Source: Tepidisphaeraceae bacterium (lineage in GTDB: Bacteria > Planctomycetota > Phycisphaerae > Tepidisphaerales > Tepidisphaeraceae). From it: 64,000 bases of DNA. Location of the stretch: the NCBI GenBank assembly GCA_035998445.1, contig DASYHQ010000013.1, forward strand, positions 62,001-126,000, given 5' to 3'. Shown here piece by piece: positions 11,891 through 40,026 of the stretch. A program made the translations under genes and the position numbers. Under the pieces are notes generated by a model. That model was not told where the DNA came from. It saw only the letters and a program-made list of their open reading frames with translations, and searched no databases. The stretch's first letter is position 1; each line of letters begins with the position of its first letter.

Positions 11891-11949
11891 GTGTTTTTCC
11901 ACTTTTCGACAGAGCATGGTATATTTGCATGTCCAGTGAGGCTCGTACG

Positions 11950-13239: not shown

Positions 13240-14259
13240 CTATCCAATTCTAGGGCCGGGCGCAAGCGGACATACTGATTCTCCAGGGTACACAAGACCA
13301 ATCTGCCGGCGGATCTCATCCATAACCTCCATGCGCTCTATAACTTCAGAACTGGGGAGGAGCGGGCTCTCGGTGAGGCCCAGGCGAAGGCAGCGCATCG
13401 TTTCGTTCGCTTGATAACAGCTCGCAGGCAGTGGGAGCTTTGGCTCGACGGTCAGTGGCTCCTGTCCATTCCGAAGCAGTGTGGCCCCGTGCGCCCAGGT
13501 GAACTGTTCAACATGAATTTGACCTTCGGTGCCGATGATGCACCCGCGGTGGGGCGTGCGGGTTCGGTTGGCGCAAGACAAGACTGCTAACCCGCCTCTG
13601 GGATACTTCAACACCATGGCGGCCTGCTCGTCGACGCCGGTGGCGCAAAGAGTGCCTTGGGCGGAGATACCGATCGGCCCGAGCCCCAAGGCCATCGTAG
13701 CGAATGCCAGGGAATAGCATCCCACGTCGAGCAGACAACCGCCGCGTCGCTCCATAGAGAAGTGCCGCTTCTCGGGATCCCACTCCGTGCAAAACCCGAA
13801 ATCGGCGATCACCTGCCGCACGTCACCGATCTGTCCTTCAGCCAGCCAGCCTGCCATCACGCGGGCGGCGGGCAGGAAGCGAGACCACAGCCCCTCCATG
13901 CAGAACACGCCCTTCTCCTTCGCCAGTGCGATGACCGCCTTGGCCTCGTCCGCGTTGATGGTGAACGGCTTCTCGACGAGCACTGCTTTGCCCTGACCGA
14001 TGAGTTCCAACGCATGCTCCGCGTGGAATTGAGGGGCAGACGCGATGTAGACGGCGTCGACGTCCGGATCCCTCGCCAGCGCCGCCACGCTGTCATAGCA
14101 GTGAGGCACACCGAACTGGTGGCCAAAGGCATCGGCGCTGGCCTGAAAGCGCGACGCGACCGCGATGACTTTCGCGTCGGGTAGCGCAGCCATCGCCTTC
14201 GCAAATTCCTTGGCATAGCCGGTACCAACAATGCCCCAGCGAGTGATCGGTTGAATCAT
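13240..14259 (-). CDS. Gfo/Idh/MocA-family sugar dehydrogenase
   Basis: This 339-aa NAD(P)-dependent oxidoreductase has an N-terminal Rossmann fold (WGIVGTGYAKEFAKAM) and the family's EKP motif (VLVEKPFTIN), followed by the C-terminal alpha/beta domain with LLDVGCYSL. It is closest in look to the dihydrodiol/xylose dehydrogenase branch. The likely reaction is oxidation or epimerisation of a free sugar or sugar acid in the cytosol. The ATG at 14259 is used; the frame opens earlier only at a TTG. It is divergent from the sugar isomerase at 14616, with which it may form a pathway, and a copy of the 41-nt motif lies between them pointing towards this gene. Confidence 0.9.
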   Translation of the reverse strand: MIQPITRWGIVGTGYAKEFAKAMAALPDAKVIAVASRFQASADAFGHQFGVPHCYDSVAALARDPDVDAVYIASAPQFHAEHALELIGQGKAVLVEKPFTINADEAKAVIALAKEKGVFCMEGLWSRFLPAARVMAGWLAEGQIGDVRQVIADFGFCTEWDPEKRHFSMERRGGCLLDVGCYSLAFATMALGLGPIGISAQGTLCATGVDEQAAMVLKYPRGGLAVLSCANRTRTPHRGCIIGTEGQIHVEQFTWAHGATLLRNGQEPLTVEPKLPLPASCYQANETMRCLRLGLTESPLLPSSEVIERMEVMDEIRRQIGLVYPGESVCPLAPGPRIG

Positions 14260-14428
14260 ATGGTTGAAGGTGCGTTGGACAGATGGCGGTGCCAACAAGT
14301 TATGCCGATATCCGGGCTACAGGTCTTGCGAACTGGACGTTCCGGACGATATAGCTTTAGCCTGCCGGCCGTAAAACGGCCACGACTCTGTCGAGCCACC
14401 TGCTCATTGTGCCCCGGGTTTCACGCCA

Positions 14429-14469
14429 GCCAATGTCACTGAGCGCAGGAATCTCTCTCGTTTGGCGCA
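14429..14469 (-). promoter_or_regulatory. 41-nt conserved motif, copy 3
   Basis: Read on the minus strand this is TGCGCC, 17 nt, TGCGC, 5 nt, GACATTGGC. It agrees with the copies at 16648, 32536 and 39986 at most positions and has exactly the same length. Its downstream edge is 170 nt before the Gfo/Idh/MocA start. The surrounding 14260-14615 region holds nothing else recognised. Confidence 0.7.
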
Positions 14470-14615: not shown

Positions 14616-15461
14616 ATGAATCCGTTACAGGGCGCGTTGCGTGTGGGTGGCCCGGTGTTCGTGAAGACCGACGATCCTGTTGAACTCGCACGCGCGCACC
14701 GCGACGCCGGGTGGTCGGCGGCCCTCGGTCCACCGATTGACCCCGGCGACTCGAGCCAAGCCCGCCGGGTGCGAGACGCTTTTGCAGCCGTGGACGTGAT
14801 GTTGGCGGAGGTTGGGGCCTGGGGCAACATGATCTCACCCGACACCGCGCGGCGAACGGCGAGCCTCGCGAAGGTGACGCGCAAACTCGCCGAGGCCGAC
14901 GCGCTGGCTGCGCGGTGCTGCATCAATTACCTGGGGACGCTCGATCCCGACACCGACTTCGGTCCGCACCCCGCTAATCTGACCCCCGATGCGTTCGACC
15001 TTGCCGTGGAAACGATTCGCGCGGTCATCGATGCCGTGCGTCCGACCCGAACGAAGTTCTGTCTGGAGATGATGCAGTGGATCATTCCCGATAGCGTCGA
15101 GATCTACGCAGATTTGATTCGCGCCGTCGACCGCAATGCGTTTGCCGCGCACGTGGATCCAGTGAACCTCGTGCTCACGCCGCGTCAGTACTTTGATACC
15201 GGAAAACTCATACGCCATGCCTTTGCCGTACTTGGTCCGCACGTGGTCAGCTGCCATGCGAAGGACGTCGTGTTGCGATACTCCCTTGGGCTGCACATGG
15301 ACGAGGTGCCGCCCGGCAAGGGCGCGATGGATTACGTGACGTACCTTCGCGAGATCCGCGAACTGGGGCGAGACGTCCCGTTGCTCATCGAGCACCTGGG
15401 CTCGGCCGAGGAGTATGAACAAGCCCGCCTGCACTTGGCGGCATGTGATCGGCCGCACTGA
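14616..15461 (+). CDS. Sugar phosphate isomerase/epimerase-like TIM-barrel protein
   Basis: A 281-aa member of the AP-endonuclease-2 / xylose-isomerase-like barrel family. Candidate metal-binding residues are seen in KFCLEMMQW (Glu), AAHVDPVNL (Asp and His), VSCHAKDV (His) and LLIEHLG (Glu), the usual four-site pattern. Such enzymes isomerise or epimerise sugars or keto-inositols with a divalent metal. The ATG at 14616 follows AGAAGAGG; an earlier ATG at 14481 would add 45 residues unlike the family. It is divergent from the dehydrogenase at 13240, suggesting a shared pathway. Confidence 0.87.
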   Translation: MNPLQGALRVGGPVFVKTDDPVELARAHRDAGWSAALGPPIDPGDSSQARRVRDAFAAVDVMLAEVGAWGNMISPDTARRTASLAKVTRKLAEADALAARCCINYLGTLDPDTDFGPHPANLTPDAFDLAVETIRAVIDAVRPTRTKFCLEMMQWIIPDSVEIYADLIRAVDRNAFAAHVDPVNLVLTPRQYFDTGKLIRHAFAVLGPHVVSCHAKDVVLRYSLGLHMDEVPPGKGAMDYVTYLREIRELGRDVPLLIEHLGSAEEYEQARLHLAACDRPH

Positions 15462-15486: not shown

Positions 15487-16611
15487 TCATCGGAAGCGGT
15501 AATGCTTGCGATACTCGCCAGGCGTCGTGTTCAGCCGCCGCTGAAACGCGCGGTACATTTGCAGGGCGGTCGCAAATCCCGACGACCTGGCGATGTCAGG
15601 CGCGCGCAGGTCAGTCTGAGCGAGCATGCGCTTCGCACGCTCGATCCGCGCGTGCTCAATCTCGTACATCACCGTTCGCCCCATGACGCGCTTGAATCGG
15701 ATCTGCAGCGTCCGGCGGCTGAGGCGGGCGGCGTCGGCGACGTCGTCGTAGTCGATCTGGTGTTCGGCGTTCTCGTGGATGAAACGCATTGCGGCAATGA
15801 TGTCCGGATCGCTGACTGCCTGCAGGTCGGACGACGCGCGGGTCACCACGCCGGTAGGGGGCAATAGGATCGGGCCCGAGGGTGGCGCCTTCCCCCGCAT
15901 CAACTGGTCGAGCAGCCGCGTCGCCTCGAAACCGATCTGCTCGGCCGGCACGTCGATGCTCGAGATCGGCACGAACGACTGCGTGCAGGCCAGCTCGTCG
16001 TTGTTCACGCCAAGCAACGCCGCCTCCTGCGGCACGTTGATGTCGGCCTGAACGCACATGTCGCTCAAGTGTCGCACCATCCGGTCATCGGCGCCAAAGC
16101 CGGCGAAGGGTTTGGGCACTTCGCGCAACCAGCCGATGACGTACTCGTCGTAGTCGGCTGAATGCATGCCGACGAAGTTCATGCGATGCACACGGTGCCC
16201 GGCCGCCTCCACCGCTTCCGTGAACGCTGCTTCTCGAAGTTCGGAGTAGACCGCCTCACGCCTCACGATGTAGACGAAGTGTTCGTACTGCCGCTCGAGA
16301 AAGTACGCCGCCGCCATCGCGCCGATCGCGTGGTCATCCGGCGCCACCCGTGGCAAATCTGCCGCCTCCGGAAGGACGCGGGTTGTATCCACCACCGGAA
16401 AATCCTTGGTCCGCAGGTATTCCAATTCGCGCGGCGCAGTCAGATGTGTCAGCGCACCTCGGATCTGAAAGTTCTCGAAGAGCCATGGCGAAAACGACTC
16501 GACGAACAGCCACCGTTTCAGGGGAAACGTGTATCGGATAATTCCCCGGATTACGCCGCGCTCATAGTGGTAGTCGGGCGGAACCAACATCGAGATTCGG
16601 TCGACTTTCAT
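15487..16611 (-). CDS. XylR-type AraC-family regulator with periplasmic-binding-like sensor
   Basis: The 374-aa protein has a LacI-like sensor (residues 1 to about 265: DRISMLVPPDYHYERGVIRG, ALLGVNNDELACTQSFVPIS) and a C-terminal AraC domain (SRRTLQIRFKRVMGR, RSSGFATALQMYRAFQRRLN). AGAGGTG six bases before the ATG at 16611 sets the start; a GTG three codons earlier is less likely. One copy of the 41-nt motif lies 36 bases upstream of its start, so this regulator is the best candidate to recognise all four copies. It ends 25 bases past the convergent isomerase gene. Confidence 0.9.
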   Translation of the reverse strand: MKVDRISMLVPPDYHYERGVIRGIIRYTFPLKRWLFVESFSPWLFENFQIRGALTHLTAPRELEYLRTKDFPVVDTTRVLPEAADLPRVAPDDHAIGAMAAAYFLERQYEHFVYIVRREAVYSELREAAFTEAVEAAGHRVHRMNFVGMHSADYDEYVIGWLREVPKPFAGFGADDRMVRHLSDMCVQADINVPQEAALLGVNNDELACTQSFVPISSIDVPAEQIGFEATRLLDQLMRGKAPPSGPILLPPTGVVTRASSDLQAVSDPDIIAAMRFIHENAEHQIDYDDVADAARLSRRTLQIRFKRVMGRTVMYEIEHARIERAKRMLAQTDLRAPDIARSSGFATALQMYRAFQRRLNTTPGEYRKHYRFR

Positions 16612-16647
16612 CCAATGCACCTCTGGCCTTTGATCCTACGACCTCTT

Positions 16648-16688
16648 TGCGCCAAACGATAGACATTTCTGCGCAGGACGACATTGGC
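16648..16688 (+). promoter_or_regulatory. 41-nt conserved motif, copy 1
   Basis: Reads TGCGCC, AAACGATAGACATTTC, TGCGC, AGGAC, GACATTGGC. The TGCGC half-sites are 22 nt apart. It sits in the divergent region between the third XylR-type regulator and the PEP-CTERM gene at 16957. Confidence 0.7.
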
Positions 16689-16956
16689 TGCTGAAATTTA
16701 TGAGTAATATTATGAGGGTTGAAGGGCCGGTCCCCACGGGGCCGTCGCGCGGTGTACGCAGTCGCTGAGACCGCCCTCGGTACACCGCCGCGTCCAGATG
16801 CTGGAGTCTTCGATTCGCAGAGAACGCACCGTTGTGACGGTGTTCACTTGTTCGATGGCGAAGGTGGCCGTCAACCGTCCTGTCCGTTTGATGACGCTGC
16901 TGATGTCACGTGTGTGGCAGGCGGAGTCGGTCTACCTGTTTTCCCTTGGAGGAAGA
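16689..16956 (+). other. Long GC-rich leader before a PEP-CTERM gene
   Basis: No gene is apparent. The stretch contains complementary arms GCGGTGTAC (16749-16757) and GTACACCGC (16780-16788), and a GGCCGG..CCCC..GGGGCCG element just before them. It may be a structured 5' leader; the ribosome site TTGGAGGAAG ends it. Confidence 0.3.
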
Positions 16957-17820
16957 ATGAATCGCTTCTTGTTGTGTGCCGCGGCCGTTTCCGTTCTGTC
17001 CGCAAGCACCGTTTCGATGGCGGCTTTTACTTACGACTTTAACGCTGGTCAGACAGACTTTACTAACAACTTTAGCGCGACTGGCAACAACTCAGTTCTC
17101 CCAACAAACGGGCTGTCGGGAGGCGGTGGCCTCGATCGTACAACCGGCGGCGGCGCGTACGTCTACTATAAGACGTCGCTTGGACAGTTCACTACAGCCG
17201 GTCAAACGGCTTCGCTCTCCTACTACTTCCTTGGTTCGGCAAACAACACTGCTGGCGTGAATGACTTCCTGGGGTTCTCGACCAACATTGCGAACGGGAA
17301 CCCGACGTCGACGAACAACACGAACAATATTGTGGCTGGTGTGAAGGCGCAGCTCGTCAATAACGCACTCGTGAACAGCGCGTATTCCAACACGTCGTCG
17401 CGGATCGAAACCAGCAACAACAGCGGAAGTGGGCTTGTTGCCACGGCCGGTCCCACGACGTTCACCCTTCCGGTTAATGGCACCAGTCCTGCTCAGTGGT
17501 TCTATCAGACGCTCTCCCTGACGTACAACGGTAGCGGGAGCTTCGATGTCGCCACCTCGCTGCACAACTCGTCCAACACCGGTGCGATTGGTACGCTATT
17601 GGACAGCTACTCCGTCACGCGCACGGGTCTGACTTCGCTCGAAAACGCCCCGATCTACGGTGGCTTTCAAGTCTTCAGCGGCAGCAATTCGAACATTCGC
17701 GCTGGCGCCGCAGACAACTTCACCGCCAACGAGATTGCTGCGGTCCCCGAACCAACTTCCCTGGCCGCCCTCGGCTTGGCCGGGCTGCTGGGTCTGCGCC
17801 GTCGCGCTCGGTCGATGTAA
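16957..17820 (+). CDS. Secreted PEP-CTERM protein of unknown function
   Basis: A 287-aa protein: signal peptide (cut near residue 22, VSMAA), a low-charge Asn/Thr/Ser/Gly-rich beta domain (TYDFNAGQTDFTNNF, YVYYKTSLGQFTTAGQT, DFLGFSTNI) and a textbook PEP-CTERM tail (VPEPTSLAALGLAGLLGL then RRRAR). TTGGAGGAAGA before the ATG fixes the start and rules out an in-frame upstream extension to 16798. The middle resembles LamG/concanavalin-like jelly rolls seen in this protein class, but no binding residues can be named. It is divergent from the XylR-type regulator at 15487 and followed by an intrinsic terminator. Confidence 0.88.
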   Translation: MNRFLLCAAAVSVLSASTVSMAAFTYDFNAGQTDFTNNFSATGNNSVLPTNGLSGGGGLDRTTGGGAYVYYKTSLGQFTTAGQTASLSYYFLGSANNTAGVNDFLGFSTNIANGNPTSTNNTNNIVAGVKAQLVNNALVNSAYSNTSSRIETSNNSGSGLVATAGPTTFTLPVNGTSPAQWFYQTLSLTYNGSGSFDVATSLHNSSNTGAIGTLLDSYSVTRTGLTSLENAPIYGGFQVFSGSNSNIRAGAADNFTANEIAAVPEPTSLAALGLAGLLGLRRRARSM

Positions 17821-17838
17821 CCGATCTTACTCTTCAAC

Positions 17839-17876
17839 TAACGGACGCGATGGTCAACGCTGTCGCGTCCGTTTTC
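17839..17876 (+). terminator. Rho-independent terminator
   Basis: A stem of 12 bp (17839-17850 with 17863-17874, core ACGGACGCGA) is followed by the tail of a TTTTCGT stretch, 19 bases after the PEP-CTERM stop codon. Confidence 0.8.
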
Positions 17877-17906
17877 GTATCCCGCCTGCCTGCTGGAGGA
17901 GTGACC

Positions 17907-18230
17907 ATGCGCCCAGGTTCTCGCACCCCATTTTCTTGGGTTCGCCGGCTGGTCGACCGCCGGGTTGCGGTCTGCGCGGCGGTGGCGTCCGCCGTGTCGG
18001 CGGCGTCGCTGGTACAGGCTCAGTCCACCAAATTCACGTTCACCCAGATGGACTTCTACGACGGCGCCCCGTTCCTGGGCACCGATGCGCTGGCCAGCGA
18101 CGGTGAGGTCCGCACGAGCTTCCGCGCCGTCGCCGTCCAGGCGGTGGCCGTGCCCGAGCCGTCGTCGCTCGGGTTGCTGTGTGTCACCGCTGGCGCGCTC
18201 TTGCGTCGCGGTCGCCGCGCGACGCGTTGA
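17907..18230 (+). CDS. Very short PEP-CTERM protein
   Basis: Only 107 aa long: a basic start, a hydrophobic signal segment (VCAAVASAVSAASLVQA), about 45 residues of mature sequence (STKFTFTQMDFYDGAPFLG) and a PEP-CTERM tail (VPEPSSLGLLCVTAGALL then RRGRR). CTGGAGGAGTGACC before the ATG is an excellent ribosome site, so it is probably expressed. It lacks room for a normal binding domain. It may be a cut-down remnant, or a small surface protein. It lies just upstream of the large beta-helix gene with 21 bases between, likely the same operon. Confidence 0.72.
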   Translation: MRPGSRTPFSWVRRLVDRRVAVCAAVASAVSAASLVQAQSTKFTFTQMDFYDGAPFLGTDALASDGEVRTSFRAVAVQAVAVPEPSSLGLLCVTAGALLRRGRRATR

Positions 18231-18251
18231 ACCCCTCGCAGAAGGACACCC

Positions 18252-21200
18252 ATGATGCGATCCCCACGCCGCCGTACGACCGCCGCCACCCCCGCTGGGC
18301 GTTTGATCGAGGAACTGGAGAACCGGCTACTGCTGACGACGTACTACGTCTCGACCGCTGGCGTGACGGGCAACGCCGGCACGTCGATCGACGCGCCGAT
18401 GCGCACGATCCAGGCCGCCGTAGACGCCGCGATGGCCGGCGACACGATCCTCGTACGCGGCGGCACCTACCGCGAGACCGTCACCACGCCGCGTTCGGGC
18501 ACGGCGCTGGCACGCATCACCATTCAGAACTACGAGAACGAGGTCGTGACCGTCAACGGCACGGACGTCATCACCGGCAGTTGGACCTCGATAGGCAACG
18601 AGGTCTACCGAGCGCCGATGGCGTGGAACTATCAGTTCGAGAACCACAGCACGGCTTACAACTCGAATCAGGTGTTCCACAACGGCCAGATGATTGAGCT
18701 GGCCCGCTGGCCCAACCAGACCAGCAGTGACGTCGTGATGCCGACGCTGGCGAACGCCGACAGCGTCACGATCGCCAATGGGCAGGTCACGTTTCACGAG
18801 GCCAGCTTCACCGACAACCCCGCCCGCTGGGTGGGCGCCAAGATCTGGGTCAACCTGGCCCGCAACGACATGGACGGTCAGGGCCAGACGGGCACGGTCG
18901 TCGCGGCGGCCAACGGCAGCATCACGGTCAGCGGCATCGACACGCGCGGCGGCAACCAGCCGTGGGGCGTGGGGACCGGGACCGAGTTCTACCTGTTCCA
19001 GCCGACGCTTGCCGCGCTGAACAACACCGGCGGCATCATGCAGGGGCTTGACCGCGGCGAGTGGTTCCTCGACACCGCTGCACAGCAGCTCTACGTGCGC
19101 ACGCCCACCGGCGCTGCCCCGGCGGCCGATTCGATCGAGGCGAAGCGCCGCACCTATGGCTTCAACCTGGACGGCGACAGTCACCTGAGCGTCAAGGGCA
19201 TCAACCTGTTCGGCACCTCGCTGACGACCGACAACCTCGCCGCCAACCGCAATGGCTCGCCCGGTGGCGTAGCGGCGGCCAGTAACATCCTGATTGACTC
19301 GATGAACGCGCGGTACGTGTCGCACCTCACCGATCAGACCGGCAACTACCAGATGCAGTGGCAGCAGAAGTCCGGCCTGATCCTCAGTGGAACCGCAATC
19401 ACGTTTCAGAACGGCGACGTCCGCTACAGCGCCGGGGCGGGCATGAGCGTGATCGGCCGCCAGCACAAGGTGCTGAACAACGTCTTCAAGGATCTGAACC
19501 TGAGCGCCAGCGAAGCAGGCATGGTCAACTTTGGAAAGACCTACGACGGTGGCGGCCCCATCATCAGCGAGGACCACGAGTTCGGTTACAACACGCTCTC
19601 GCACTCGCCGCAACAGGGCATCAACTTCCGGGCGCTCAAGAACAGCACCAACAGCCCGAACGACGTGCGGGCCCGCATCCACCACAACGTGATTCACGAC
19701 GTGATGCTCCGCAGCGCAGATTCGGCGGCGATCGACTCGTTCGGCGTGAACCACCAGTACGTGCGCATCGATCACAACGTCATCTACAACGTGACGGGCG
19801 GGCGTCGGTACGGGATCTACTTCGACTACTCCAGTGGCGGGATCGTCGACCACAACGTGGTCTACAACGTGACCCGCCCGGTCAACATCAACTGGAACAC
19901 GACCGGCGCGCAGAACATGCGGATCTTCAACAACGTCGGCATCTCCGATCTGCCACAGGGAGCGGGGCTGGACACCGGCAGCACCTCCAGTGAAGGCAGC
20001 ATCATCCGCAACAACATCTGGTCGAACGGCATCTGGGCCGGCGGATGGAATGGTGGGGTGGACACGCCACTGGCCGGCGCGACGGTCAGCCATAACCTGG
20101 TGGCCAGCAACTCGCTGTTCGTCGATTCGACGAACGCAAACATGGCACTGCGGAACTACCAGCTGAAGAGCACCGCGGGCGCCGCGATCGACCAAGGCAT
20201 CAGTGTGGCGCCATACGACGACGACCCGCTCGTCGGTCCGCCTGACATCGGCGCGTACGAGTACGGCGTTGCCCCCTGGGGCGCCGGTGCCGGGCAAGTG
20301 ACGGTCCCCTCGTCGTGGATCATCGGCGGTGTCGCCTACCGCGACGGGAATCGTAATGGCACGCGCGACGCGGGCGATCCACTGCTGGCCGGGCGCAGCG
20401 TCTACCTCGACCTCAACGGCAACGGCCTGCTTGACCCTGCCACCAACCGATCGTTCGCCTACACCGGCTCCGCGGTCGCGATCCGAGACAACAGCGTGTC
20501 GACGGCGACGATCACGGTGCCGGCCAACTCCGGTACCATCTCGAGCCTGCGCGTGACGCTCAACATTGCCCACACTTGGGACAGCGACCTGCGCGGGTTC
20601 CTGGTCGCGCCCGACGGCACCACCGTCGCCCTGATGGCCGCCAATGGGGGGAATGGCGACAACTTCAACAACACGGTCTTCGATGATGCGGCCGCCACGC
20701 CGATCGCCAATGGCGTCGCGCCGTTCACCGGTACCTTTCGCCCGACCGGCTCGCTGGGGACGCTCGACGGGAAGGTCGCAGCCGGCACGTGGACGCTGCG
20801 CATCGAGGACTCGGCCAGCGGCGACATCGGAACGATCAACGCGTTTTCGATCGCCTACGGCACGGCCGCCGAACCGGCGACGACGACTGCGGCCGACGGT
20901 TCGTACGCGTTCTACAACCTCGGCACCGGCTCGTACACGGTGCGCCAAGTTGTGCCGTCGGGGTGGTCAACCGTCACGCCGTCAAGCGGTGGTTACGTCG
21001 TGGCGATGACGGCTGGCACGTCGGTCCTCGACCGCGACTTCGGCAGCTATGAAAACAGCACGCCCACCGTCGCGACCGCGGCGGCGGTCGCGCCCAACCC
21101 ACCGACCGCCGCCGCGGCCGCGGCGTTGAGCGTGCTGGGCGCCGACGCCAACGGCGCGGGCAACCTGACCTACGCGTGGTCGGTCACCGCAAGGCCGACA

Positions 21201-21884
21201 GGCGCAAGCGACCCCGCGTTCGGCGCTAGCGGCACCAACGCCGCCCGGTCGACCAGCGTCACGTTCGCCGCCGCCGGCAGCTATACGCTGAGGGCGACGA
21301 TCACCAACGCCGCCGGCGCGTCGGTCACGTCAGACGTAACGGTGACCGTCAACGCCCCCACCCCGCCCGCGCCCACGGTACAGAGCCTGAGCGTCAACGA
21401 CGGCGTGGCCCAGCGCAGCATGGTGACGCGGATCACCTACGTCTTCAGCACCGCCGTCACCCCGGCCGCTGGCGCGTTCACGCTCACCCGCCGCGGCGAC
21501 GGCCAATCGGTGTCCCCCGTCGTCACGAACCCCGCCGGCGACGGACGAACCTACGTCCTGAGCTTCGGCGGCACGGGCATCGTCGGCGGCAGCCTCGCCG
21601 ACGGCGTCTACGACTTGGCGGTGGTCGCCGCCAAGATCACCGATGTCCACGGGCAGGCGCTGGCCGGCGGCGGGGGCAGCTTAGCGTTCCACCGGTTGTT
21701 CGGCGACCAGGACGGCGACCGCGACGTCGATACGGTCGACACCGCCCGGTTTAAACAGGCCTCGGGATCGCGCGTCGGTGACGCCGCGTACCGCTCCCAC
21801 TTCGACAGCGACGGCGACGGCGACATCGATACCGTCGACACCGCCCGCTTCAAGCAACGCATCGGCATCCGTTACACCTATTGA
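18252..21884 (+). CDS. Large secreted beta-helix protein with P-domain, PKD-like domain and dockerin-like C-terminus
   Basis: This 1210-aa protein starts with an LEPR-XLL-like segment (LIEELENRLLLTTYYVS), which in planctomycetes replaces a normal signal peptide. Residues about 35-670 form a right-handed parallel beta-helix (NAGTSIDAPMRTIQAAVDAA, many NNV/HNVI turns). Next come a proprotein-convertase-like P-domain (about 740-870, HTWDSDLRGFLVAPDGTTV), an SdrD/Cna-like piece, a PKD-like domain (about 935-1030) and a C-terminal pair of calcium-loop repeats, DQDGDRDVDTVD and DSDGDGDIDTVD, both followed by TARFKQ, as in type I dockerins. The helix region is a close paralogue of the protein at 40199. 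A polysaccharide lyase or hydrolase role is likely, but no catalytic residues can be assigned. Confidence 0.85.
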   Translation: MMRSPRRRTTAATPAGRLIEELENRLLLTTYYVSTAGVTGNAGTSIDAPMRTIQAAVDAAMAGDTILVRGGTYRETVTTPRSGTALARITIQNYENEVVTVNGTDVITGSWTSIGNEVYRAPMAWNYQFENHSTAYNSNQVFHNGQMIELARWPNQTSSDVVMPTLANADSVTIANGQVTFHEASFTDNPARWVGAKIWVNLARNDMDGQGQTGTVVAAANGSITVSGIDTRGGNQPWGVGTGTEFYLFQPTLAALNNTGGIMQGLDRGEWFLDTAAQQLYVRTPTGAAPAADSIEAKRRTYGFNLDGDSHLSVKGINLFGTSLTTDNLAANRNGSPGGVAAASNILIDSMNARYVSHLTDQTGNYQMQWQQKSGLILSGTAITFQNGDVRYSAGAGMSVIGRQHKVLNNVFKDLNLSASEAGMVNFGKTYDGGGPIISEDHEFGYNTLSHSPQQGINFRALKNSTNSPNDVRARIHHNVIHDVMLRSADSAAIDSFGVNHQYVRIDHNVIYNVTGGRRYGIYFDYSSGGIVDHNVVYNVTRPVNINWNTTGAQNMRIFNNVGISDLPQGAGLDTGSTSSEGSIIRNNIWSNGIWAGGWNGGVDTPLAGATVSHNLVASNSLFVDSTNANMALRNYQLKSTAGAAIDQGISVAPYDDDPLVGPPDIGAYEYGVAPWGAGAGQVTVPSSWIIGGVAYRDGNRNGTRDAGDPLLAGRSVYLDLNGNGLLDPATNRSFAYTGSAVAIRDNSVSTATITVPANSGTISSLRVTLNIAHTWDSDLRGFLVAPDGTTVALMAANGGNGDNFNNTVFDDAAATPIANGVAPFTGTFRPTGSLGTLDGKVAAGTWTLRIEDSASGDIGTINAFSIAYGTAAEPATTTAADGSYAFYNLGTGSYTVRQVVPSGWSTVTPSSGGYVVAMTAGTSVLDRDFGSYENSTPTVATAAAVAPNPPTAAAAAALSVLGADANGAGNLTYAWSVTARPTGASDPAFGASGTNAARSTSVTFAAAGSYTLRATITNAAGASVTSDVTVTVNAPTPPAPTVQSLSVNDGVAQRSMVTRITYVFSTAVTPAAGAFTLTRRGDGQSVSPVVTNPAGDGRTYVLSFGGTGIVGGSLADGVYDLAVVAAKITDVHGQALAGGGGSLAFHRLFGDQDGDRDVDTVDTARFKQASGSRVGDAAYRSHFDSDGDGDIDTVDTARFKQRIGIRYTY

Positions 21885-21910
21885 ACCGACGACCCCAAAG
21901 GACCAGAACT

Positions 21911-22507
21911 ATGAAGACCTTCCTCACCGCGTTCACTACGGCCTCGCTGGCCACCGCCGTTGCCGCGCAAGCGGGCCTGCTCTTCTCCGCCGGCGTGCCG
22001 GTCGCCGACGTGGACATCTCGGGCGGCCCGGTCACGATCACCGTGCCGCTCTACATCGAGCAGACGAGCCCGACGACCAGCATCTCCGGCGTGGGCCTCT
22101 ACTCGGTCGGCTCGGCCGTCACACGCACCGGCGGGTCGGCGACCCTCACCGGGGCCGCGCGCTTCGACGCGAACTTCGACGACGCGGGCTTCAGCTCCGT
22201 GAGCTTCACGCCCACCAGTGCGCTGCTGAAGGTGCAGCGCGACGAGGTCGGCGGCCTGAGCAATGCGTCGGGCAAACTGCAGTTCGGGACGCTCAGCCTC
22301 CTCCTGAGCAATGTGGGCACGTCCACCTTCACGCTCTCGGACAACGACCTCGACGCCGACGACACGCTCGACGGTAACATCGACCCGTTAGACGTTTTGA
22401 TCAGCAACTCGGCGTTCAGCGTCACCGCGGTCGTGCCGGAACCGGCGGTGCTTTCGTTCACGCTGCTTGCGGTACCCGCGCTACTACGGCGCCGCCGTGG
22501 ACAGTGA
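21911..22507 (+). CDS. PEP-CTERM protein with a cohesin-like beta-sandwich
   Basis: A 198-aa protein: signal peptide (cut near residue 20, VAAQA), a single beta-sandwich (VTITVPLYIEQTSPTTSISG, SGVGLYSVGSAV, FDANFDDAGFSS) and a PEP-CTERM tail (VVPEPAVLSFTLLAVPALL then RRRR). The strand pattern is reminiscent of cohesin domains in secreted planctomycete proteins; this is a fold impression, not a proven match. It follows the dockerin-like protein after 26 bases, clearly one operon. The ATG at 21911 (AAAGGA upstream) is chosen over 21881, which overlaps the previous stop. Confidence 0.8.
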   Translation: MKTFLTAFTTASLATAVAAQAGLLFSAGVPVADVDISGGPVTITVPLYIEQTSPTTSISGVGLYSVGSAVTRTGGSATLTGAARFDANFDDAGFSSVSFTPTSALLKVQRDEVGGLSNASGKLQFGTLSLLLSNVGTSTFTLSDNDLDADDTLDGNIDPLDVLISNSAFSVTAVVPEPAVLSFTLLAVPALLRRRRGQ

Positions 22508-22690
22508 GGCCCCCATGCACCGGCCATCGCCGCGCGCCTACCTTGACGCCGGTAATGAGCGTCACGAGGCTTGACTGTTGGCTTCTGCTTTACCTTAAAA
22601 TCGCCTTCAATCGGCTCCAGAACGACGTGACGTCCATCACGCCGCTCTGGCGCTGCGCTTGATCGCCTGACGTGCGGTCGGAATGACGAC

Positions 22691-24109
22691 ATGCCTACCA
22701 CGATTGAAATGAACAGCAAGTTGACGGCCGGGGCTCACCTCGAGTGGTGGTTAGAGGCACGGTTCGGCATGAGCCTTCACTGGGGGCTGTACTCCATTCC
22801 CGGCCGCGGTGAGTGGATCCGTTCCGGCGAGCGACTGTCGGTGGAACAGTACCAACCCTACTTCGACGCATTCGCGCCCGACCCCGGCTGCTGTCGGGAG
22901 TGGGCTCGCCTCGCGCGCGAGGCTGGGGCGAAGTACGTCGTACTGACGGCCAAGCACCACGACGGCTTCTGCTTGTGGGACAGCAAGCTGACGTCCTACA
23001 CCTCCATGAACACGCCAGCCGGCCGGGATCTTATTCGCGAGTACGTCGATGCGCTTCGAGCCGTGGGGCTGCGCGTCGGCTTGTACTACTCGTTGGTCGA
23101 CTGGCATCATCCGGACTACGGCCTCGTCTATGGCGACCGACAACACCCATTGCGGCACGATTCCCAGCAGCGCGAGCTGGACGCGAAGCGCGACTGGTCA
23201 CACTACGTTCGCTACCTGCACGGGCAGGTCGAAGAGCTGATGACCCACTACGGCACGATCGACGTGCTGTTCTTCGACTTCAGCTACTGGGACTTCGCCG
23301 GCGAGCAGTGGGGGGCAGGCGACCTGATGCGCACGGTGCGCCGGCTACAGCCCAACATTGTCGTGAACGATCGGCTGGGTGGTGAAGAGATCAAGGCCGC
23401 GACGCCGGCGGCATGGGTGGGGGATTTCGACCACGCCGAGCAGAACATCCCACGCGAGCCCGTCGTGGATGCCCGTGGCTGTAGGGTTCCGTGGGAGGCA
23501 TGGCTCACGCTGACCAACAGCTGGTGTCACAGCGAAGGTCCTTCCGACTACAAGTCGGCTGCGACCGTGGTGCGGTCGCTCGTGAACTCCGTGAGCAAGG
23601 GTGGGAATATGTGTCTGAACGTCGCGCCGGACGCGAAGGGACACTTGGCGAAGGAAACCGTGGCGATCCTGCAGCAGGTCGGCAAGTGGATGCGAAGCAA
23701 CGGCGAGAGCATCTACGGTTGCGGACCAACCGCGCTGTCGAAGCCGGACTGGGGACGGTTCACGCTGTCGAACGACGGGCGGCACCTTTATGCCCACCTG
23801 CTCGAACAACAGATTGGGCACGTTTCGCTGGCGGGGCTGCGTGGCTGGGTTGAACGGCCGCTCGTGCTGGCGACGGGGAAGCCGGCATTGCTGGGTAACT
23901 ATTGGAATCCCGGCGTGCAGACGTTCGACTCGCCCGATGACGTGTTCCTGAATACCGCTGCCCCCATGCAGGCCACTTGGCCGCTGCCGGACGAGACCGA
24001 CACGGTCATCCGTTTTGACGTGGTGCGCGATCCGGAGCGCCGTCAGCAGATCGTTCAGGAGATGCAGGCCGAATTCGACCGTGCAATGCGGCGCGTGCCG
24101 TTCGAATGA
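22691..24109 (+). CDS. GH29 alpha-L-fucosidase
   Basis: The 472-aa protein begins with the GH29 signature region: WWLEARFGMSLHWGLYSIPG, then YVVLTAKHHDGFCLWDS. The nucleophile is probably D196 in IDVLFFDFSYWD, at the place of the usual WFDG Asp. A C-terminal beta-sandwich follows the barrel. It releases terminal alpha-L-fucose from glycans. No signal peptide is visible, so it likely acts in the cytosol. It is convergent with the GH95-like gene at 24158, and the two together point to a fucose-containing substrate. In 22508-22690 upstream no gene is seen. Confidence 0.9.
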   Translation: MPTTIEMNSKLTAGAHLEWWLEARFGMSLHWGLYSIPGRGEWIRSGERLSVEQYQPYFDAFAPDPGCCREWARLAREAGAKYVVLTAKHHDGFCLWDSKLTSYTSMNTPAGRDLIREYVDALRAVGLRVGLYYSLVDWHHPDYGLVYGDRQHPLRHDSQQRELDAKRDWSHYVRYLHGQVEELMTHYGTIDVLFFDFSYWDFAGEQWGAGDLMRTVRRLQPNIVVNDRLGGEEIKAATPAAWVGDFDHAEQNIPREPVVDARGCRVPWEAWLTLTNSWCHSEGPSDYKSAATVVRSLVNSVSKGGNMCLNVAPDAKGHLAKETVAILQQVGKWMRSNGESIYGCGPTALSKPDWGRFTLSNDGRHLYAHLLEQQIGHVSLAGLRGWVERPLVLATGKPALLGNYWNPGVQTFDSPDDVFLNTAAPMQATWPLPDETDTVIRFDVVRDPERRQQIVQEMQAEFDRAMRRVPFE

Positions 24110-24157: not shown

Positions 24158-26404
24158 TCATTGTGCGCAGTCGATCACGATCGTCTGTCCGGCGGAAGTC
24201 GGGATGCGCGCCACACTTTGCTCGCTGCGCAACGGCTCGTCGCCGATTCGGCACTGGCCGAGACCGGCCGTCGCCAACACTAATTCTTGGCCTTGGACGC
24301 TCCTGATCCGTACCTGCGTGATGGCAGCCTCGCGCACGGTGACGCCGCAGAGGAACGCGCCTTCGGTCAGCAAGCCGTCAAACTCCAGTTCGCGCCAGCC
24401 CTTCGGCAACCCGGCCGGCAGGAGGTGGATGACTGGCTCGCCGGTGGACCAGCGGCATTGAACCAGCAGTTCGCAGACGGCGGTCACCAACGACATCGCC
24501 GCTTCCATCTGCATGATCTCGTAGTTCGTCGACGGATCGCGGCGGAAATTGCGCTGCCCGAACCCACCATCGCTGAACGCGCTGGTGCCGGCGAAGTCGC
24601 CGTTGTGCAACGTGCCGTAACCCTCGTTGCAGAACGCGTACGCCCACCACTTCAGCCACAGGATCGCCGGGGTCGCCAGCCCCATTCGGGCATAAATAAT
24701 GCTCGCCCATGGCACGCACCATCCGGTCCACTCACCAGCGCCAATCCACGTCCAGTGACCGATCGTATTTGCAACCGCGCGGTTGTGACGCTCGTCGAAT
24801 GGGTCGATAGTGCAGAACGGCCACAGGCCCGCGAGGTGCGCGTGGTGTCGATGGCTCTTGGTCAGGTCGTGCCCGTCCCACAGCGTGATGCGGCGTTGGT
24901 CGGCCCGGTGCGGGTCAGGCATGCTGGCGTAAGGCGGCAACCGATCGAGGACCGCTTGCCACCGCGGATCCAGGTCGCGTCCGAGCACGCGCGCTGCACG
25001 TTGCAGCAGCTGTGCGGTCATGTGCGCCGCGGCCATCTGGAAGCTCGAGTCACGACCCCACTGGCCGGCCATCGTGTGGTCGCGGTGATATTCGGGACTG
25101 ACGCTGACCGGCAACGTCAGCGAGCCGTCCGGCTTCTGTTCAAACATCACCCAAAAGCCTTCGAACGCGCCCACCATCAGCGGCCAGGCGATATCGCGCA
25201 GCACCTTCTCGTCCATCGTATGGCGATAGTGCAGCCACGCCATCTGCGCAATCCACGCCGTGCAGGCGTGGTCGATCGTGCCTGCCCAGAACGTCCCGAT
25301 GACGTTGCAACGGTCGTCAACGGCGTGCGGCAGCAGCATCGCGCCATCGCGCTCAAAGAAGCGCTCGCCATATTCGCGCAGTTTGGGAAACCACGATGTC
25401 ACCATCGACCAGAGTGGCCCCATGTGCTCGGGTCGGTTGCTCGGCAGGCACGCGCTGTACACGAGCTGCACATTGATGTTGAAGTGGTAGTCGTTGCTCC
25501 ACGGCGGGATCTGGTAATCCTCCATGAAGCAACCCTGCAGCGTCGCCGCCTCTGCGTGGGGCGGATTCAGACCAGCCTGTTTGTACAGCCCGAGGTCGAG
25601 GTAGCGCTGCAGTTCCACATCGGGAATCTGGATCTGCGGCACGGCCTTCCAATAACTTGACCACCACGCCTCGGCGTCGCGTCGCACGGCGGCGACGTCC
25701 GCTTCCTGCACGCGGGCCTGAACGATCGCCCGCGCATCGGCGCCGAGCGCGCTGCCCAGCAGTAACGACCCCTTCGTTCGCTTCCAAGCGACAGCCAGCG
25801 GTTCATCGTCCGGCAGGCATTGGATGAACCCGCCACTGTACTTCTCGTTCCATTTTTCAGGACGTGGCATGCCTCGATCCTCCAGCCGTTCTCGGGTGGT
25901 TTCGAAGGCTGGAGTGAGGGTGACGACCGCTCCATCGAGCAGCCCGGCCGTGTCGGACTTGAGCCACGCGATTTCGTCGGTCGGGTGCAGGCCGATGCGA
26001 AGGCGCTGAGTCTCATGCCCGCTTCGCAGTTCGAGCGATACCTCGGCCGTCGTCACGTCAAGGGACGCGCGCAGGGGTTTGAAGCCATTTGCAAACGTGA
26101 TCTCCAGTCGGCCACCGCCGTACTGGCATGGGCGGTCGGGCGACGCTTTTGGCTGATCACGACCGAACAGGCGATCGAGCCCTGCGGCGTCGTCCGTCTG
26201 CAGCAGCGACTTCACCTCTGCGAACGTCGCGCGGTCCAGTACCGGATTGGCTCCGCGATGGTCCCAGAACCCCGCGCGGGCGATCGTGATGCAGAGCGTG
26301 TCGGTCCCCCAGATCAGGAGACCCATTGTGCCGTTGCCAAGCGGAACTCCCGCATGTTGCTTCTGGATCGGGTAGTACCACTCGACTGATGATCGTGATT
26401 GCAT
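24158..26404 (-). CDS. GH95-type alpha-L-fucosidase-like (alpha/alpha)6 hydrolase
   Basis: A 748-aa protein with the GH95 plan: N-terminal beta-sandwich (EWYYPIQKQHAGVPLGNGTM), helical linker, (alpha/alpha)6 barrel (FMEDYQIPPWSNDYHFNINV, HAVDDRCNV) and C-terminal beta domain. SHRHHAHLAGLWPF corresponds to the HRH-LxGL(Y/W)P motif of the family. GH95 enzymes act on alpha-1,2-fucosyl or galactosyl links by inversion. It has no signal peptide, so it is probably cytosolic like the convergent GH29. AGGTGTAGG lies upstream of the ATG. A related uncharacterised GH family remains possible because the catalytic residues were not aligned. Confidence 0.8.
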   Translation of the reverse strand: MQSRSSVEWYYPIQKQHAGVPLGNGTMGLLIWGTDTLCITIARAGFWDHRGANPVLDRATFAEVKSLLQTDDAAGLDRLFGRDQPKASPDRPCQYGGGRLEITFANGFKPLRASLDVTTAEVSLELRSGHETQRLRIGLHPTDEIAWLKSDTAGLLDGAVVTLTPAFETTRERLEDRGMPRPEKWNEKYSGGFIQCLPDDEPLAVAWKRTKGSLLLGSALGADARAIVQARVQEADVAAVRRDAEAWWSSYWKAVPQIQIPDVELQRYLDLGLYKQAGLNPPHAEAATLQGCFMEDYQIPPWSNDYHFNINVQLVYSACLPSNRPEHMGPLWSMVTSWFPKLREYGERFFERDGAMLLPHAVDDRCNVIGTFWAGTIDHACTAWIAQMAWLHYRHTMDEKVLRDIAWPLMVGAFEGFWVMFEQKPDGSLTLPVSVSPEYHRDHTMAGQWGRDSSFQMAAAHMTAQLLQRAARVLGRDLDPRWQAVLDRLPPYASMPDPHRADQRRITLWDGHDLTKSHRHHAHLAGLWPFCTIDPFDERHNRAVANTIGHWTWIGAGEWTGWCVPWASIIYARMGLATPAILWLKWWAYAFCNEGYGTLHNGDFAGTSAFSDGGFGQRNFRRDPSTNYEIMQMEAAMSLVTAVCELLVQCRWSTGEPVIHLLPAGLPKGWRELEFDGLLTEGAFLCGVTVREAAITQVRIRSVQGQELVLATAGLGQCRIGDEPLRSEQSVARIPTSAGQTIVIDCAQ

Positions 26405-26461
26405 TGTGCCTACACCTGGAAATGTTCGATGAAGTATGAGCGGTTAATCAGGAAAGAGAAT

Positions 26462-26509
26462 CCCTAAAAGACCGAGGCTTGTCCACCATGGTGGGGGCAA
26501 GCCTCGGTC
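26462..26509 (-). terminator. Rho-independent terminator of the giant GH2-like gene
   Basis: A 12-bp stem (26470-26481 with 26498-26509, core GACCGAGGCTTG) with an inner palindrome CCACCATGGTGG. On the minus strand it is followed by TTTTAGGG. It lies 42 bases beyond the stop of the gene at 26551. Confidence 0.75.
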
Positions 26510-26550
26510 AAAGGGCCAGCATGCGTTTAGAACAGGCCGCGCAGCCCCGG

Positions 26551-29500
26551 TTACCAGTTGTAGAACCGGTGCGGCTCATCGCCCAATTCGAAATCCTCGC
26601 GGTAGTCGGCGTGGTAGAGGCCGGGCGACTTCGGCTTCGGCGCTTCCTTGGGCAGGCTGAGCCGCATGTCAGCCTCGACGCCCGTAAAGCCACCGCCACC
26701 GAACCGGTCCCACACGCGCACCGCCAACACGTTCTGGCCTTGGCGAAGCAGGCTTGCGGGAACGGCGTACTCGCGCTTCACACTCCAGTTTGCTTCATCG
26801 GAGTCGCCGCGCCCACCGATGCGCGTACCGTTGAGGTAGACGTCGTCGTTGTCGTCGATCGCGCCCAGCGACATTCGCAGGTCACGACCCCGCAGCGATT
26901 CGGGCACCTCGAACGTGCGGCGGAACACGGCCTCGCCATCACGATTGGCCCATGTCTGGCCGAGCGTCTCCATGTCGCGCGGCATCTGGGCCTTCTGCCA
27001 ATCGGCATCGTTCACGTCGACACCCACAAGGGCTTTAGCCTCTGCGGAGATCGACGGGTCCACATGCCCCTTTTCGGGTGACGTGGCTGCGGGAAGCGAC
27101 TGCACCTGACGGGCGCGCCATTCGCCGGCGAGCGACAGCTCGGGCGACGATTCAGGTGGCAGCTCCGGACGCAGCGGGCGTGCGTCGGCCGTGAATGACG
27201 CGCCGAGGTTCGCCAGCAGCTGAGAGAGGGCCCCCGTCTGCCGCCAACGCGTCTTACGGAAGTACGTCTTCGTATCGGCATCGAAGCGATCGGGATCGAC
27301 CTGGCTGAAGACCGCGACGCCTTCGCCCACTTCCAGGCGTGCAATCTGCCCACCCGCGGTGGACTCGGCGCCAGGGCCAACCAGCCACGCGTCGGTGGCG
27401 GCACGCCAGCGGAGGTCCGCCGTCGTCAGACCGGCTGTTTCCGCCCAATCGGCCACTTCCGGGGCCTTCAGGTCGGCGGCGGTCTCCTGCACGAAGTTGA
27501 GTCCGAGCACCGGTTCTGCCGACACGCGCGGAAGGAACAGAGCCCGTCCACCGGCCGACAGGAACTTGCGCAGCGTGTCATTATCCGGCTTGGTGCTGCG
27601 CCCAACGATCAGAAGGTGGTCAGGGTTGGGCACGGCGTCAACGCGCGTCGCCTCGACGCCAACGGTGTTCAGGAACGCAGCATCTTCGTCGCTGCCCATC
27701 AACACCGTCGGCCGACGCGGCGACAGCGGCGCGGTCGCTGCGTGGTTGATCAGCTGGCGTGCCAACTTCATGGCGGCGGGGTCGGAGGTGTAGTCTTCCA
27801 AGTCAAGCTGGTTCCACGTGATCCGTCCACTGCCCAGGTTCAATTCCAGCAGCGGCGAGTAAGCCAGATCGAAGTCGGACACGAGCAGCGGACGCCAGCC
27901 TGCGCGGTGCGGCGTCTCGATCGGCGCCGTCGAGATGGCGCCACGGTTGCCCCAACGCCAGCCAGCGTACGGATAGATTGACTTGGACTTCAGCTGGTCC
28001 GGGCCCGTCAACTCGGCCGTGGACGGGTAGGGCTTAACCAGCGTGCTGGAACCACGCCAGTCGCGCAGGTCTTCGGTGTCCAGCCCCGCGAGTACGGGAT
28101 GGTCGCCGTCCACCGGGAACGCGCTGCGCTGTGACCGCCAGCTGACGCGCATCCCCAGTTGCTTGCGCATGAACTCCGGCGGTTGTGACATGATGATGAC
28201 GCGCCCGCCCGCCTTGGCGAACTGCTCGACGTCCGCAGTGAGGGCCGGTTCATCGGCCAACGCGCCGCGGCCAACGATCAGCAACTCACCCGATGCCTTG
28301 CGGTCCCACTCGGTAGCGGACACGCCCAGCTGTTCCAGCATTGCCTTCGATCGACCTTGAGGATCGACGACGAACGCCTTGACCTGTTCGGCCTGATTGC
28401 CCTCGCCGCGCTTCGCCATCGGCGCGAAGACGCGGAACGCGAACGTATCGCGCTGCTCCGCTTCGCCGATCGTCGCGGTCATCTCGATCGACCCGTCGGC
28501 CTTGTCCTGCTGCAACTGCGGGGTTGTGAACTCGAACGGAACGAACAGCGTCTGTCCCGGCGTAAGCGTGCCGGACGCGTCTGAGCCACCGACCTTGCTG
28601 CCGTTCACCGTAGCGATCCAGCTCACGCGGTACGGTTGCTCGCTGCGCGTGTCGTTCAGCAGTGCGACCTGCTTTTCAACCTTGTCGCCGGCCACGTAGT
28701 TGTGCGAGCGATCTGTGAAGGCATCGGCCGGACCGGCGATCCAGGCCAGCGTGGGTTGGTTGTTCTCCGCCAGCGCGTCGCCCGCGACCGTGCGTTTGCC
28801 GTCGATGACGGCATAGCCATCGTCCCATGGGATCATGCCACCAGTGATGCCCCACGTGCGCCACGTGCGCCACGTGTCGCGCAGGAACACCGCCTGCATG
28901 GCTTGGAAGGGGGGTGACGTCCGAATGAATTTATTGAAGTGCCAGCCGGCGTACGTTTGACCTTCCTTGAACTGGCGGACGAGTTCCTGCCGGTACTCGG
29001 GCGCTTCCAGTCGATAGGCATCGGGCCCGATGAACCCGGCGCTGTACTCGGTAATGAACGGTTCGCTTGCCGTCGTGTTGCCGTAGTTGTTACGGCCGCG
29101 CATCAGCGACGAGTAGAGGGGCGTGCCGAACTCGACGTACATCACCGGCATGTCGCCCTTGGCGGCGTAGACGCTCAGCCACTCGCTGCGTTCCTGGAGC
29201 GGCATGAGGTTCAGGTACAGGTTAGCGGTGAAGACGTCGCCGACCGCGCCACCGTTGTGGAAGAAGATGGGCCGGGTCGGGTCGATGGCCTTCAGCAGGG
29301 CGATCGCTTCTGCGCCCAGTGCGTCCGGTTGTTCCCGCTTCATCGTGGCCGCCCGCGCCTTGGCGGCGGCCTCGCGATTACCCACTGCTTCCGGCCCGAT
29401 GAACGCGCCCAGCGCGTTACCACTGCTGCCCCACATGAGGATCGACGGGTGGTTGCGGTACTTTCGCATCTCCCGCTCGGCCGCCGCCTGGAAGGCCGCC

Positions 29501-31311: not shown

Positions 31312-31380
31312 GTGTGTGTTGTTACCTGGCTCGTGAGACACGAGGGGGAAGGCGGGTTGATCTGATCCCTCAACCAACGC

Positions 31381-31413
31381 TCGGAACCTGATCGCGACAC
31401 GATCAGGTTCCGA
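31381..31413. other. Stem-loop between pseudopilin and giant GH2-like gene
   Basis: A perfect 14-bp stem (31381-31394 with 31400-31413, core TCGGAACCTGATCG) and 5-nt loop lie between the pseudopilin stop and the GH2-like start. No T run follows on the minus strand, so it may be an attenuator or an RNA processing/stability hairpin. Confidence 0.6.
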
Positions 31414-31522
31414 GGAAGGCCGTACTTCGTGTGGACGGGCAGTGGGTGCAGACCAAACGCGGATCTGCGGCCATCCCCACGATCGATAAGGTCACTTTCC
31501 CCCATCAATTAGGTCGGTCAGT

Positions 31523-32401
31523 TTAGTCCTTAACGTACGTCCAGCGACCCGAGGTAGGGCCCTTCATCCTGTTGATGTAGTCAGGGCTGCCCTTGATGAC
31601 GCCAGCAGACTCGTAGGGCGTCATCGCCTCCACGTGCCCATCGGCAATCAGGTAGTTGAAACGTCCGCCGGGGTGAAGCGCGTACGAGATGGCGCCGACC
31701 GGGGAATTGCTCGGAAGGTTTGTATTCTCCCAAGGCCCCTTAACCTGTTGGGCCGGCGCATCTTTCGCAGAGCCACCCGTCGTGCCCATTGGGCTGTTGG
31801 GAAGCGAATCGTTGATCACTGAACCATCCGACCACTCCATCAGCATGATGGTGTCGTTCGCAATGGACGAATATTGCTTTCTCGAGGCGGGCTTGCCGTA
31901 AAAATCTACCGTTGTAGGACCGGCAGATATCGTCGATATGCCCAGAGAACCCAGCCCGAACGAGTTCCAATTACGGTTGCGGATCGGCTTGTACGTGATG
32001 TTCCGCATGGGCGTGCTATTGTCCGACGGGCACTGAAGAATTGGCGGGCAGTACGTTTGGGCGGTATTGGAATAGTCGCCGTCCTTGACGGCGTCAGGCA
32101 TGCGACCACCGGTCAAGTACTTGTCCATCCAGTCGGTCCAAGTCCAGTTTCGACCCGGCGCAAGCTGATAGCCGCCCGGTGGCAGAATCCCGCTGTTCTC
32201 GTTCGCGTACATCCGGAACATCAGGCCGATCTGCCGCATGTTGCTGGCGCACGCGACCGTGTTGGCAGCCTGCCTCGCCTTATTCAGCGACGGAAGCAGG
32301 ATGCTGATCAGCAGGGCGATGATGCCGATGACAACGAGTAACTCGACCAGCGTGAAGCCCAAGGGACAGGACCGACGGGACGATTTGCGGTTGCGCGACA
32401 T
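31523..32401 (-). CDS. Type II pseudopilin, planctomycete H-x9-DG type
   Basis: The 292-aa protein has a basic leader, the cleavage site and helix ([20 protein letters not shown]), the [21 protein letters not shown] continuation and a C-terminal DGH motif (FNYLIADGHVEAMTP). AAGGAG five bases before the ATG supports the start. It is directly upstream of the giant GH2-like gene on the same strand, with a stem-loop in the 211-nt gap, exactly the order found again at 50434-55745. A copy of the 41-nt motif lies 135 nt upstream, pointing at this gene. Confidence 0.9.
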   Translation of the reverse strand: MSRNRKSSRRSCPLGFTLVELLVVIGIIALLISILLPSLNKARQAANTVACASNMRQIGLMFRMYANENSGILPPGGYQLAPGRNWTWTDWMDKYLTGGRMPDAVKDGDYSNTAQTYCPPILQCPSDNSTPMRNITYKPIRNRNWNSFGLGSLGISTISAGPTTVDFYGKPASRKQYSSIANDTIMLMEWSDGSVINDSLPNSPMGTTGGSAKDAPAQQVKGPWENTNLPSNSPVGAISYALHPGGRFNYLIADGHVEAMTPYESAGVIKGSPDYINRMKGPTSGRWTYVKD

Positions 32402-32535
32402 GCGAACTCCTTAAGCAAGAACTGACGTGAATGTTGATTCGGCCAACGAAGCTTGCATGGCGGGGTAGCACGGAATGCCCAAGCCGCTATTCAAGCCAAT
32501 TTCGTCAGAGTAAATATGCACCCAATTCTGCGCAG

Positions 32536-32576
32536 GCCAATGTCGCTCGGCGCAGAAATCTCTATCAACGGGCGCA
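32536..32576 (-). promoter_or_regulatory. 41-nt conserved motif, copy 4
   Basis: On the minus strand it reads TGCGCC, CGTTGATAGAGATTTC, TGCGC, CGAGC, GACATTGGC. It lies 135 nt upstream of the pseudopilin start. The rest of 32402-32902 holds no recognisable gene; a 150-codon minus-strand frame there is of low quality. Confidence 0.7.
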
Positions 32577-32902
32577 GCCTCCTTGCAATCTGAATTAGTT
32601 GAGGCAGATTGTGCGTAACTCTCGGTAGAACAGATGCACTCGGCCTTTCGTTCTCGATCGATTAGCGGGATTGGGATGCTCTGCGGGTAACCCCTTAGCC
32701 AAAAAGACGACGTCGGACGAGAGACGGAGGATCTACGAGTCGAGCGTGTCCCATCCGATCTGTCTTCTCGTCGTTCATTGAGTGTCTCTGGCGCAGCGGG
32801 AGCATTCCGGTGCGGGTCGCGCTCCGCTTCGGTCGCAAAAATTTTGGGCGGATCGCCGTACATGGATACACCCTGCTGGGGACATTGTGAGGTTGAGTGC
32901 AG

Positions 32903-39985: not shown

Positions 39986-40026
39986 TGCGCCGAGCGATAA
40001 ACATTTCTGCGCTCGACGACATTGGC
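39986..40026 (+). promoter_or_regulatory. 41-nt conserved motif, copy 2
   Basis: Reads TGCGCC, GAGCGATAAACATTTC, TGCGC, TCGAC, GACATTGGC. It is 172 nt upstream of the second LEPR-XLL-type beta-helix gene and points towards it. The gap 39695-40198 otherwise holds only repeat copy B. Confidence 0.7.

Follow-up and report, generated by a model that had tools for sequence, protein, structure and literature searches.

Four copies of a 41-nt motif form a putative XylR-type operator-promoter set in a glycan cluster of a Tepidisphaeraceae bacterium

Among the described switches closest to the one proposed here, E. coli XylR has two adjacent sites at each of the xylA and xylF promoters (PMC7567609), and XylR-type sites have been described as AT-rich direct repeats (PMC12125979). 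In Vibrio, several operons of the xul beta-1,3-xylan locus are preceded by a direct-repeat motif attributed to XylRA, and binding to this motif was tested by mobility shift (PMC12125979). Direct repeats of 21 bp also occur with the AraC-family rhamnose regulators, which are grouped as AraC-family and are not described as XylR-type; the repeat described below has a period of 22 bp. At araBAD of E. coli, AraC, whose sensor is a cupin domain, uses the direct half-sites I1-I2 (TAGC-N7-TCCATA, 21 bp), the second of which abuts the -35. For Planctomycetes, we found no description of an XylR-type operator in the open-access literature.

The window, by which we mean the whole analysed stretch of 64,000 nucleotides from a Tepidisphaeraceae bacterium, holds four copies of a 41-nt motif, at 14429..14469 (-), 16648..16688 (+), 32536..32576 (-) and 39986..40026 (+) (copies 1 to 4). 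A pattern scan recovered all four at the positions and on the strands given in an initial annotation, which had also placed each of them between genes, and our gene call from codon usage agrees. Dinucleotide shuffles of the window gave no match, against the four observed (up to three mismatches). Read in its own sense, the consensus is TGCGCC-N4-GA(T/G)A(G/A)A(C/G)ATT(T/C)C-TGCGC-N5-GACATTGGC. The shared boxes proposed initially are all present; the layout needed one correction, in that ATTYC runs straight into TGCGC with no gap. Twenty-eight of the 41 columns are invariant, and any two copies agree at 31-36 of 41 positions, whereas their flanks agree at 16-28 of 80, which is near chance. Within the motif, TGCGC-N5-GAYA recurs as a direct repeat with an offset of 22 bp, and the repeat ends in TTGGC; in copy 1, one half has GAGA in place of GAYA. 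This is the direct-repeat form expected if, as first suggested, TGCGC half-sites 22 nt apart suit an AraC-type dimer. The 13 variable columns recur with a period of 21-22 bp and fall mostly in two spacers (columns 7-10 and 28-32) offset from one another by 22 bp; such an arrangement of spacers in register would be expected for a pair of like protein subunits that contact one face of the helix.

Set beside the known systems, this arrangement resembles that of Vibrio XylRA in having one local XylR-type regulator, one direct-repeat motif and several operons within one polysaccharide locus, but the phylum, the motif sequence and the substrate all differ. With E. coli XylR it shares a regulator homologous over its full length (PDB 4fe4/4fe7) and the use of direct repeats; in contrast, the boxes here are GC-rich (TGCGC, TTGGC) and the targets are glycan hydrolases, not xylose genes. 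As in AraC I1-I2, two direct half-sites lie two helical turns apart and the second abuts the -35 (class II), although the spacing there is 21 bp, the half-site sequence is another and the sensor is a cupin. Among the known XylR-type systems compared, GC-rich TGCGC/TTGGC boxes and a 22-bp spacing are the window motif's own.

What follows the motif is equally regular. A -10-like hexamer lies 17 nt after each copy: CACAAT at 14406..14411 (-) for copy 1, AATATT at 16706..16711 (+) for copy 2, and CATATT both at 32513..32518 (-) for copy 3 and at 40044..40049 (+) for copy 4. Each matches TATAAT at four of six positions, at an identical offset in all four cases. Among 20,000 random 4-tuples of noncoding, gene-facing sequence, none had four hexamers of at least 4/6 at one common offset; the summed hexamer score was likewise reached in none of 20,000, and with a probability of 1e-4 in an AT-matched pool. 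If TTGGC is taken as the -35 region, the predicted order of half-site, half-site, -35, 17 nt and -10 corresponds to a class II activator promoter of the AraC type, such as araBAD.

The copies are set within a cluster of genes whose products, named from Pfam, suggest glycan breakdown. Copy 1 lies between divergent genes for a Gfo/Idh/MocA dehydrogenase (13240..14298, -), its proposed target, and a xylose isomerase-like TIM barrel protein (AP_endonuc_2; 14616..15461, +). Copy 2 separates the XylR-type regulator gene (15487..16620, -) from the divergent PEP-CTERM/beta-helix/GH29 run that is its proposed target (16957..24109, +), with two PEP-CTERM proteins, a dockerin/P-domain repeat protein, an unnamed ORF and a GH29 alpha-L-fucosidase on the same strand. 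Copy 3 is placed between its proposed target, a same-strand run of DUF1559 pseudopilin, GH2 and GH95 genes (24158..32401, -), and a divergent gene 320 nt away for an MGH1/GH63/trehalase-like glycosidase (32897..34771, +). Copy 4 occupies a tandem gap upstream of its proposed target, a beta-helix protein gene (DUF1565/chondroitinase B-like; 40199..42310, +). Three gene starts had been put 135-172 nt from a copy; we now measure 169 nt for Gfo/Idh (from ATG 14259; 130 nt if TTG 14298 is used), 134 nt for the pseudopilin and 172 nt for the beta-helix protein. Copy 2 does lie, as annotated, between a PEP-CTERM gene and the XylR-type regulator, and the PEP-CTERM start (ATG 16957, preceded by GGAGGA) is 268 nt away. 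Three divergent regions (14.4, 16.7 and 32.5 kb) and one tandem gap (40.0 kb) each contain a copy, so that between 13.2 and 42.3 kb almost all transcription units have a site beside them and could be served by the four; the exception is the divergent pair of units around the cupin-type AraC gene at 34865-35644. GH29 and GH95 together presumably signify a fucose-bearing glycan, and they point to such a glycan as the substrate of the cluster.

The intergenic DNA of this genome also carries dispersed repeats. One, AGATCCCTCAGGTCGGCGAGCCTCCCATCGGGATGACA, is present in both orientations at 39806-39846, 39875-39915 and 44906-44946, with related copies on contigs C51 and C61; it closely precedes motif copy 4 and resembles an element of the REP/MITE type. 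A second, CTCTTCTGTAGGACAGGCATTCCTGCCTGTCTCTCCCC, has several near-identical intergenic copies on contigs C8, C41 and C61 (for example L098, L111 and L104).

With regard to occurrence beyond the window, the scan of the genome and the class that the initial annotation had proposed found no copies inside genes or at random places. The organism's own assembly (5,844,885 bases in 64 contigs, 95.5% complete) holds these four copies only, on one contig and within 26 kb, at up to three mismatches and with about 4.5% of the genome possibly missing; a reversed-pattern control gave no match. At the same threshold the motif was absent from 396 other genomes of the class, and it was absent from 25 other genomes of the family. 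An exact-pattern scan of a collection of genome contigs, in which this genome is perhaps not included, also returned none. The 3' half alone matched at two extra places on other contigs at the three-mismatch limit, and these look like chance because the reversed control also gives one. A weight matrix built from the four sites scored them at 58-64 bits, against 14 bits for the next best match in 1.0 Mb of the same genome, namely the sequence around all 25 XylR-type genes; leave-one-out scores were 43-55 versus 13-18 for the best match elsewhere. Since the copies are few, local and intergenic, the search for a repeat in place of an operator left the operator reading standing.

XylR-type relatives provide a view of this kind of promoter that does not depend on the window's own regulator. 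The genome encodes about 25 XylR-type paralogues that are 27-43% identical to the regulator at 15487. Among the best matches in the order and family, no orthologue exceeded 37% identity, and a scan of genome contigs found no close orthologue; the regulator and the motif therefore cannot be tracked together across species. We took the 350 nt upstream of 53 XylR-type genes (25 from this genome, 28 from the family). Self-similarity within these regions is highest at 21 bp, a spacing seen at 14 of 53 loci with at least 11 of 16 positions alike, most other spacings having 1-7 loci; one short spacing, 12 bp, is also high (12 loci), and counts of exact YGCGRMA pairs by spacing yielded few cases. Blind expectation-maximisation (run, like the gene calling, with custom scripts) on 52 upstream regions, with 15487 left out, returned tTtGCGcaaAa..TtT.cg.tTTTGCGaca, a direct repeat of GCG boxes spaced 21 bp and located shortly before the start of the regulator genes. 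Its best log-likelihood was 259; a control run reached 232 versus at most 138 in five shuffled sets, and four sets of other genes gave 188-201 without such a repeat. Palindromic TTTGCGCAAA boxes at the relatives look LacI-like, but a LacI-type operator was rejected, as the proteins carry AraC and not LacI DNA-binding domains.

When 26 of the relatives' sites are read away from the regulator, 12 of them have TGG at offset 6-7; a -10 is found at offset 28 in 42% and at offset 29 in 27%, most offsets having 0-4%. The window's layout is thus also present at the relatives' promoters, where it was found without the window's regulator, and the operator reading is supported because a blind search at 52 XylR-type relatives recovers an operator-promoter of a related kind. 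The spacing differs, being 22 bp in the window motif and 21 bp in the relatives' sites. A gapped profile of the relatives' sites, run over the window, ranked two training sites first and copies 4, 2 and 3 among the next five, on the strand given by the initial annotation, their second GCG box and their -10 both falling in register; the scores of the copies are individually weak (E 3-9) and copy 1 was not listed. The gene of the closest paralogue (C10:143118-144248, 37% identity) is flanked on either side by copies of a motif of its own, three in all (C10:142589-144343, L095), in which [TTCC-N5-TGCG(G/A)(A/C)A] occurs twice at 21 bp, so that the pattern of one local regulator with one local motif has a second instance. 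An all-against-all comparison of 41-mers near each paralogue was swamped by coding sequence and dispersed repeats, and clear private motifs emerged only on C10 and C38.

The regulator beside copy 2 is of the XylR type. Pfam assigns Peripla_BP_3 and HTH_18/HTH_AraC domains to it: a LacI-like periplasmic-binding sensor domain (PF13377, residues 105-264, E 8e-29) and a C-terminal AraC double helix-turn-helix (PF12833, residues 295-372, E 4e-19). Its similarity to E. coli XylR extends along the whole protein (4fe4_A, of the structures 4fe4/4fe7; E 7e-38, residues 5-371), and it carries the canonical first recognition helix SRRxLxxRF. Its likely start is ATG 16611, with copy 2 located 36 nt upstream.

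We favor a scenario, to which we give a probability of about 0.75, in which the motif is an operator fused to a promoter and is bound by an XylR-type dimer, most likely of the 15487 product, that activates the glycan cluster in class II fashion. What we infer is binding by a dimer, activation in preference to repression, an inducer and autoregulation, as follows. The protein encoded at 15487-16620, with its LacI/PBP-like sugar sensor and AraC-type DNA-binding domain, would bind each copy as a dimer through the directly repeated TGCGC-N5-GAYA half-sites with their 22-bp spacing. The proximal half-site would abut the -35 region TTGGC, with the -10 17 nt further on, and the dimer would recruit RNA polymerase. 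A sugar or oligosaccharide released from the glycan may serve as inducer. The runs starting at 14298 (-), 16957 (+), 32401 (-) and 40199 (+) would be switched on, perhaps together with the genes that diverge from them at 14616 and 32897. The regulator probably limits its own synthesis, which we propose because copy 2 is so near its start; no common -10 position was found in the regulator's own direction, so that distance is the basis on which autorepression is proposed.

The identity of the binding protein is where an alternative has most room, since the other candidates, encoded by the XylR-type genes at 5001 and 11929 and the cupin AraC gene at 34865, lie within the same window as 15487. The window also holds two LacI genes, at 45216 and 49309. 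That the same kind of operator is bound by the cupin AraC protein or by the XylR-type product of 5001 or 11929 is unlikely in our judgement, even with the cupin AraC gene (AraC_binding + HTH_18; 34865-35644) situated inside the cluster, between copies 3 and 4 and divergent from a PhyH dioxygenase gene. The promoter of 34865 lacks the motif, and it contains no tandem repeat of 21-22 bp. Gene 5001 owns a site of the 21-bp form, TTTGCGTGAAACATTCTTGATTTTGCGCAA, at 4942-4971, 26 nt upstream, and the paralogue at 11929-13128 has VYQHRLERKF as its first recognition helix instead of SRRxLxxRF and is preceded by TTCCCMA repeats 22 bp apart with no GCG boxes. Only 15487, among the local regulator genes, has a motif copy at its own start. 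We infer, in line with the initial annotation, that its product is the best candidate binder of the motif, because of that copy, the full-length XylR match and the canonical first helix, and because 5001 and 11929 have different own sites and the cupin AraC has none. One idea is that the conserved first helix may read GCG; this rests on one exception, 11929. Granting the 15487 product as binder, it could act as a repressor that blocks the promoter until sugar arrives. The site does abut the -35, and at copy 2, near the regulator's own start, a block is likely. We regard repression as quite improbable: the operator precedes the core promoter, whose -35 (TTGGC) differs from TTGACA in the manner of activator-dependent promoters; the relatives' promoters show the same layout; and E. 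coli XylR (PMC7567609) and Vibrio XylRA (PMC12125979) are activators.

Readings that dispense with an operator fare worse. Other dispersed intergenic repeats do exist in the genome, one family of them just upstream of copy 4, and the motif might on that account be a repeat or the remnant of a mobile element that fell between genes by chance. This explanation is already largely refuted and very improbable, given four copies only, unrelated flanks and variable positions that lie mostly in two register-matched spacers. The 130-270 nt between motif and start codons would leave room for a transcribed RNA element ahead of the four genes, such as a leader or riboswitch, but the motif lies upstream of the common -10 and so would not be transcribed with its target, and there is no Rfam match within 13-43 kb; we give this reading hardly any credence. 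An operator fused to a promoter, bound most likely by the 15487 product, remains the reading that we prefer.

Our findings support a new local regulon under a known kind of switch, as judged from the DNA. For a planctomycete glycan-degradation cluster, they would provide a sequence-specific, testable regulon with the likely switch named. It is also fairly probable, in our view, that this genome and its family share one inherited operator-promoter plan, consisting of two GCG boxes at 21-22 bp, TGGC in the role of the -35 and a -10 about 17 nt on. An enlarged set of local XylR-type activators (about 25 here) would use it, each with a specificity variant of its own that serves the adjacent glycan cluster, and the window motif would be the clearest case, with four sites. 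If this is true, polysaccharide loci in Phycisphaerae would have a readable regulatory code, of which we found no description in the open-access literature. Judging from the related sites at many XylR-type paralogues, sequence might reveal the operators, the target operons and perhaps the substrates of dozens of uncharacterised clusters, if each local sensor is matched to the adjacent GCG-box promoters.
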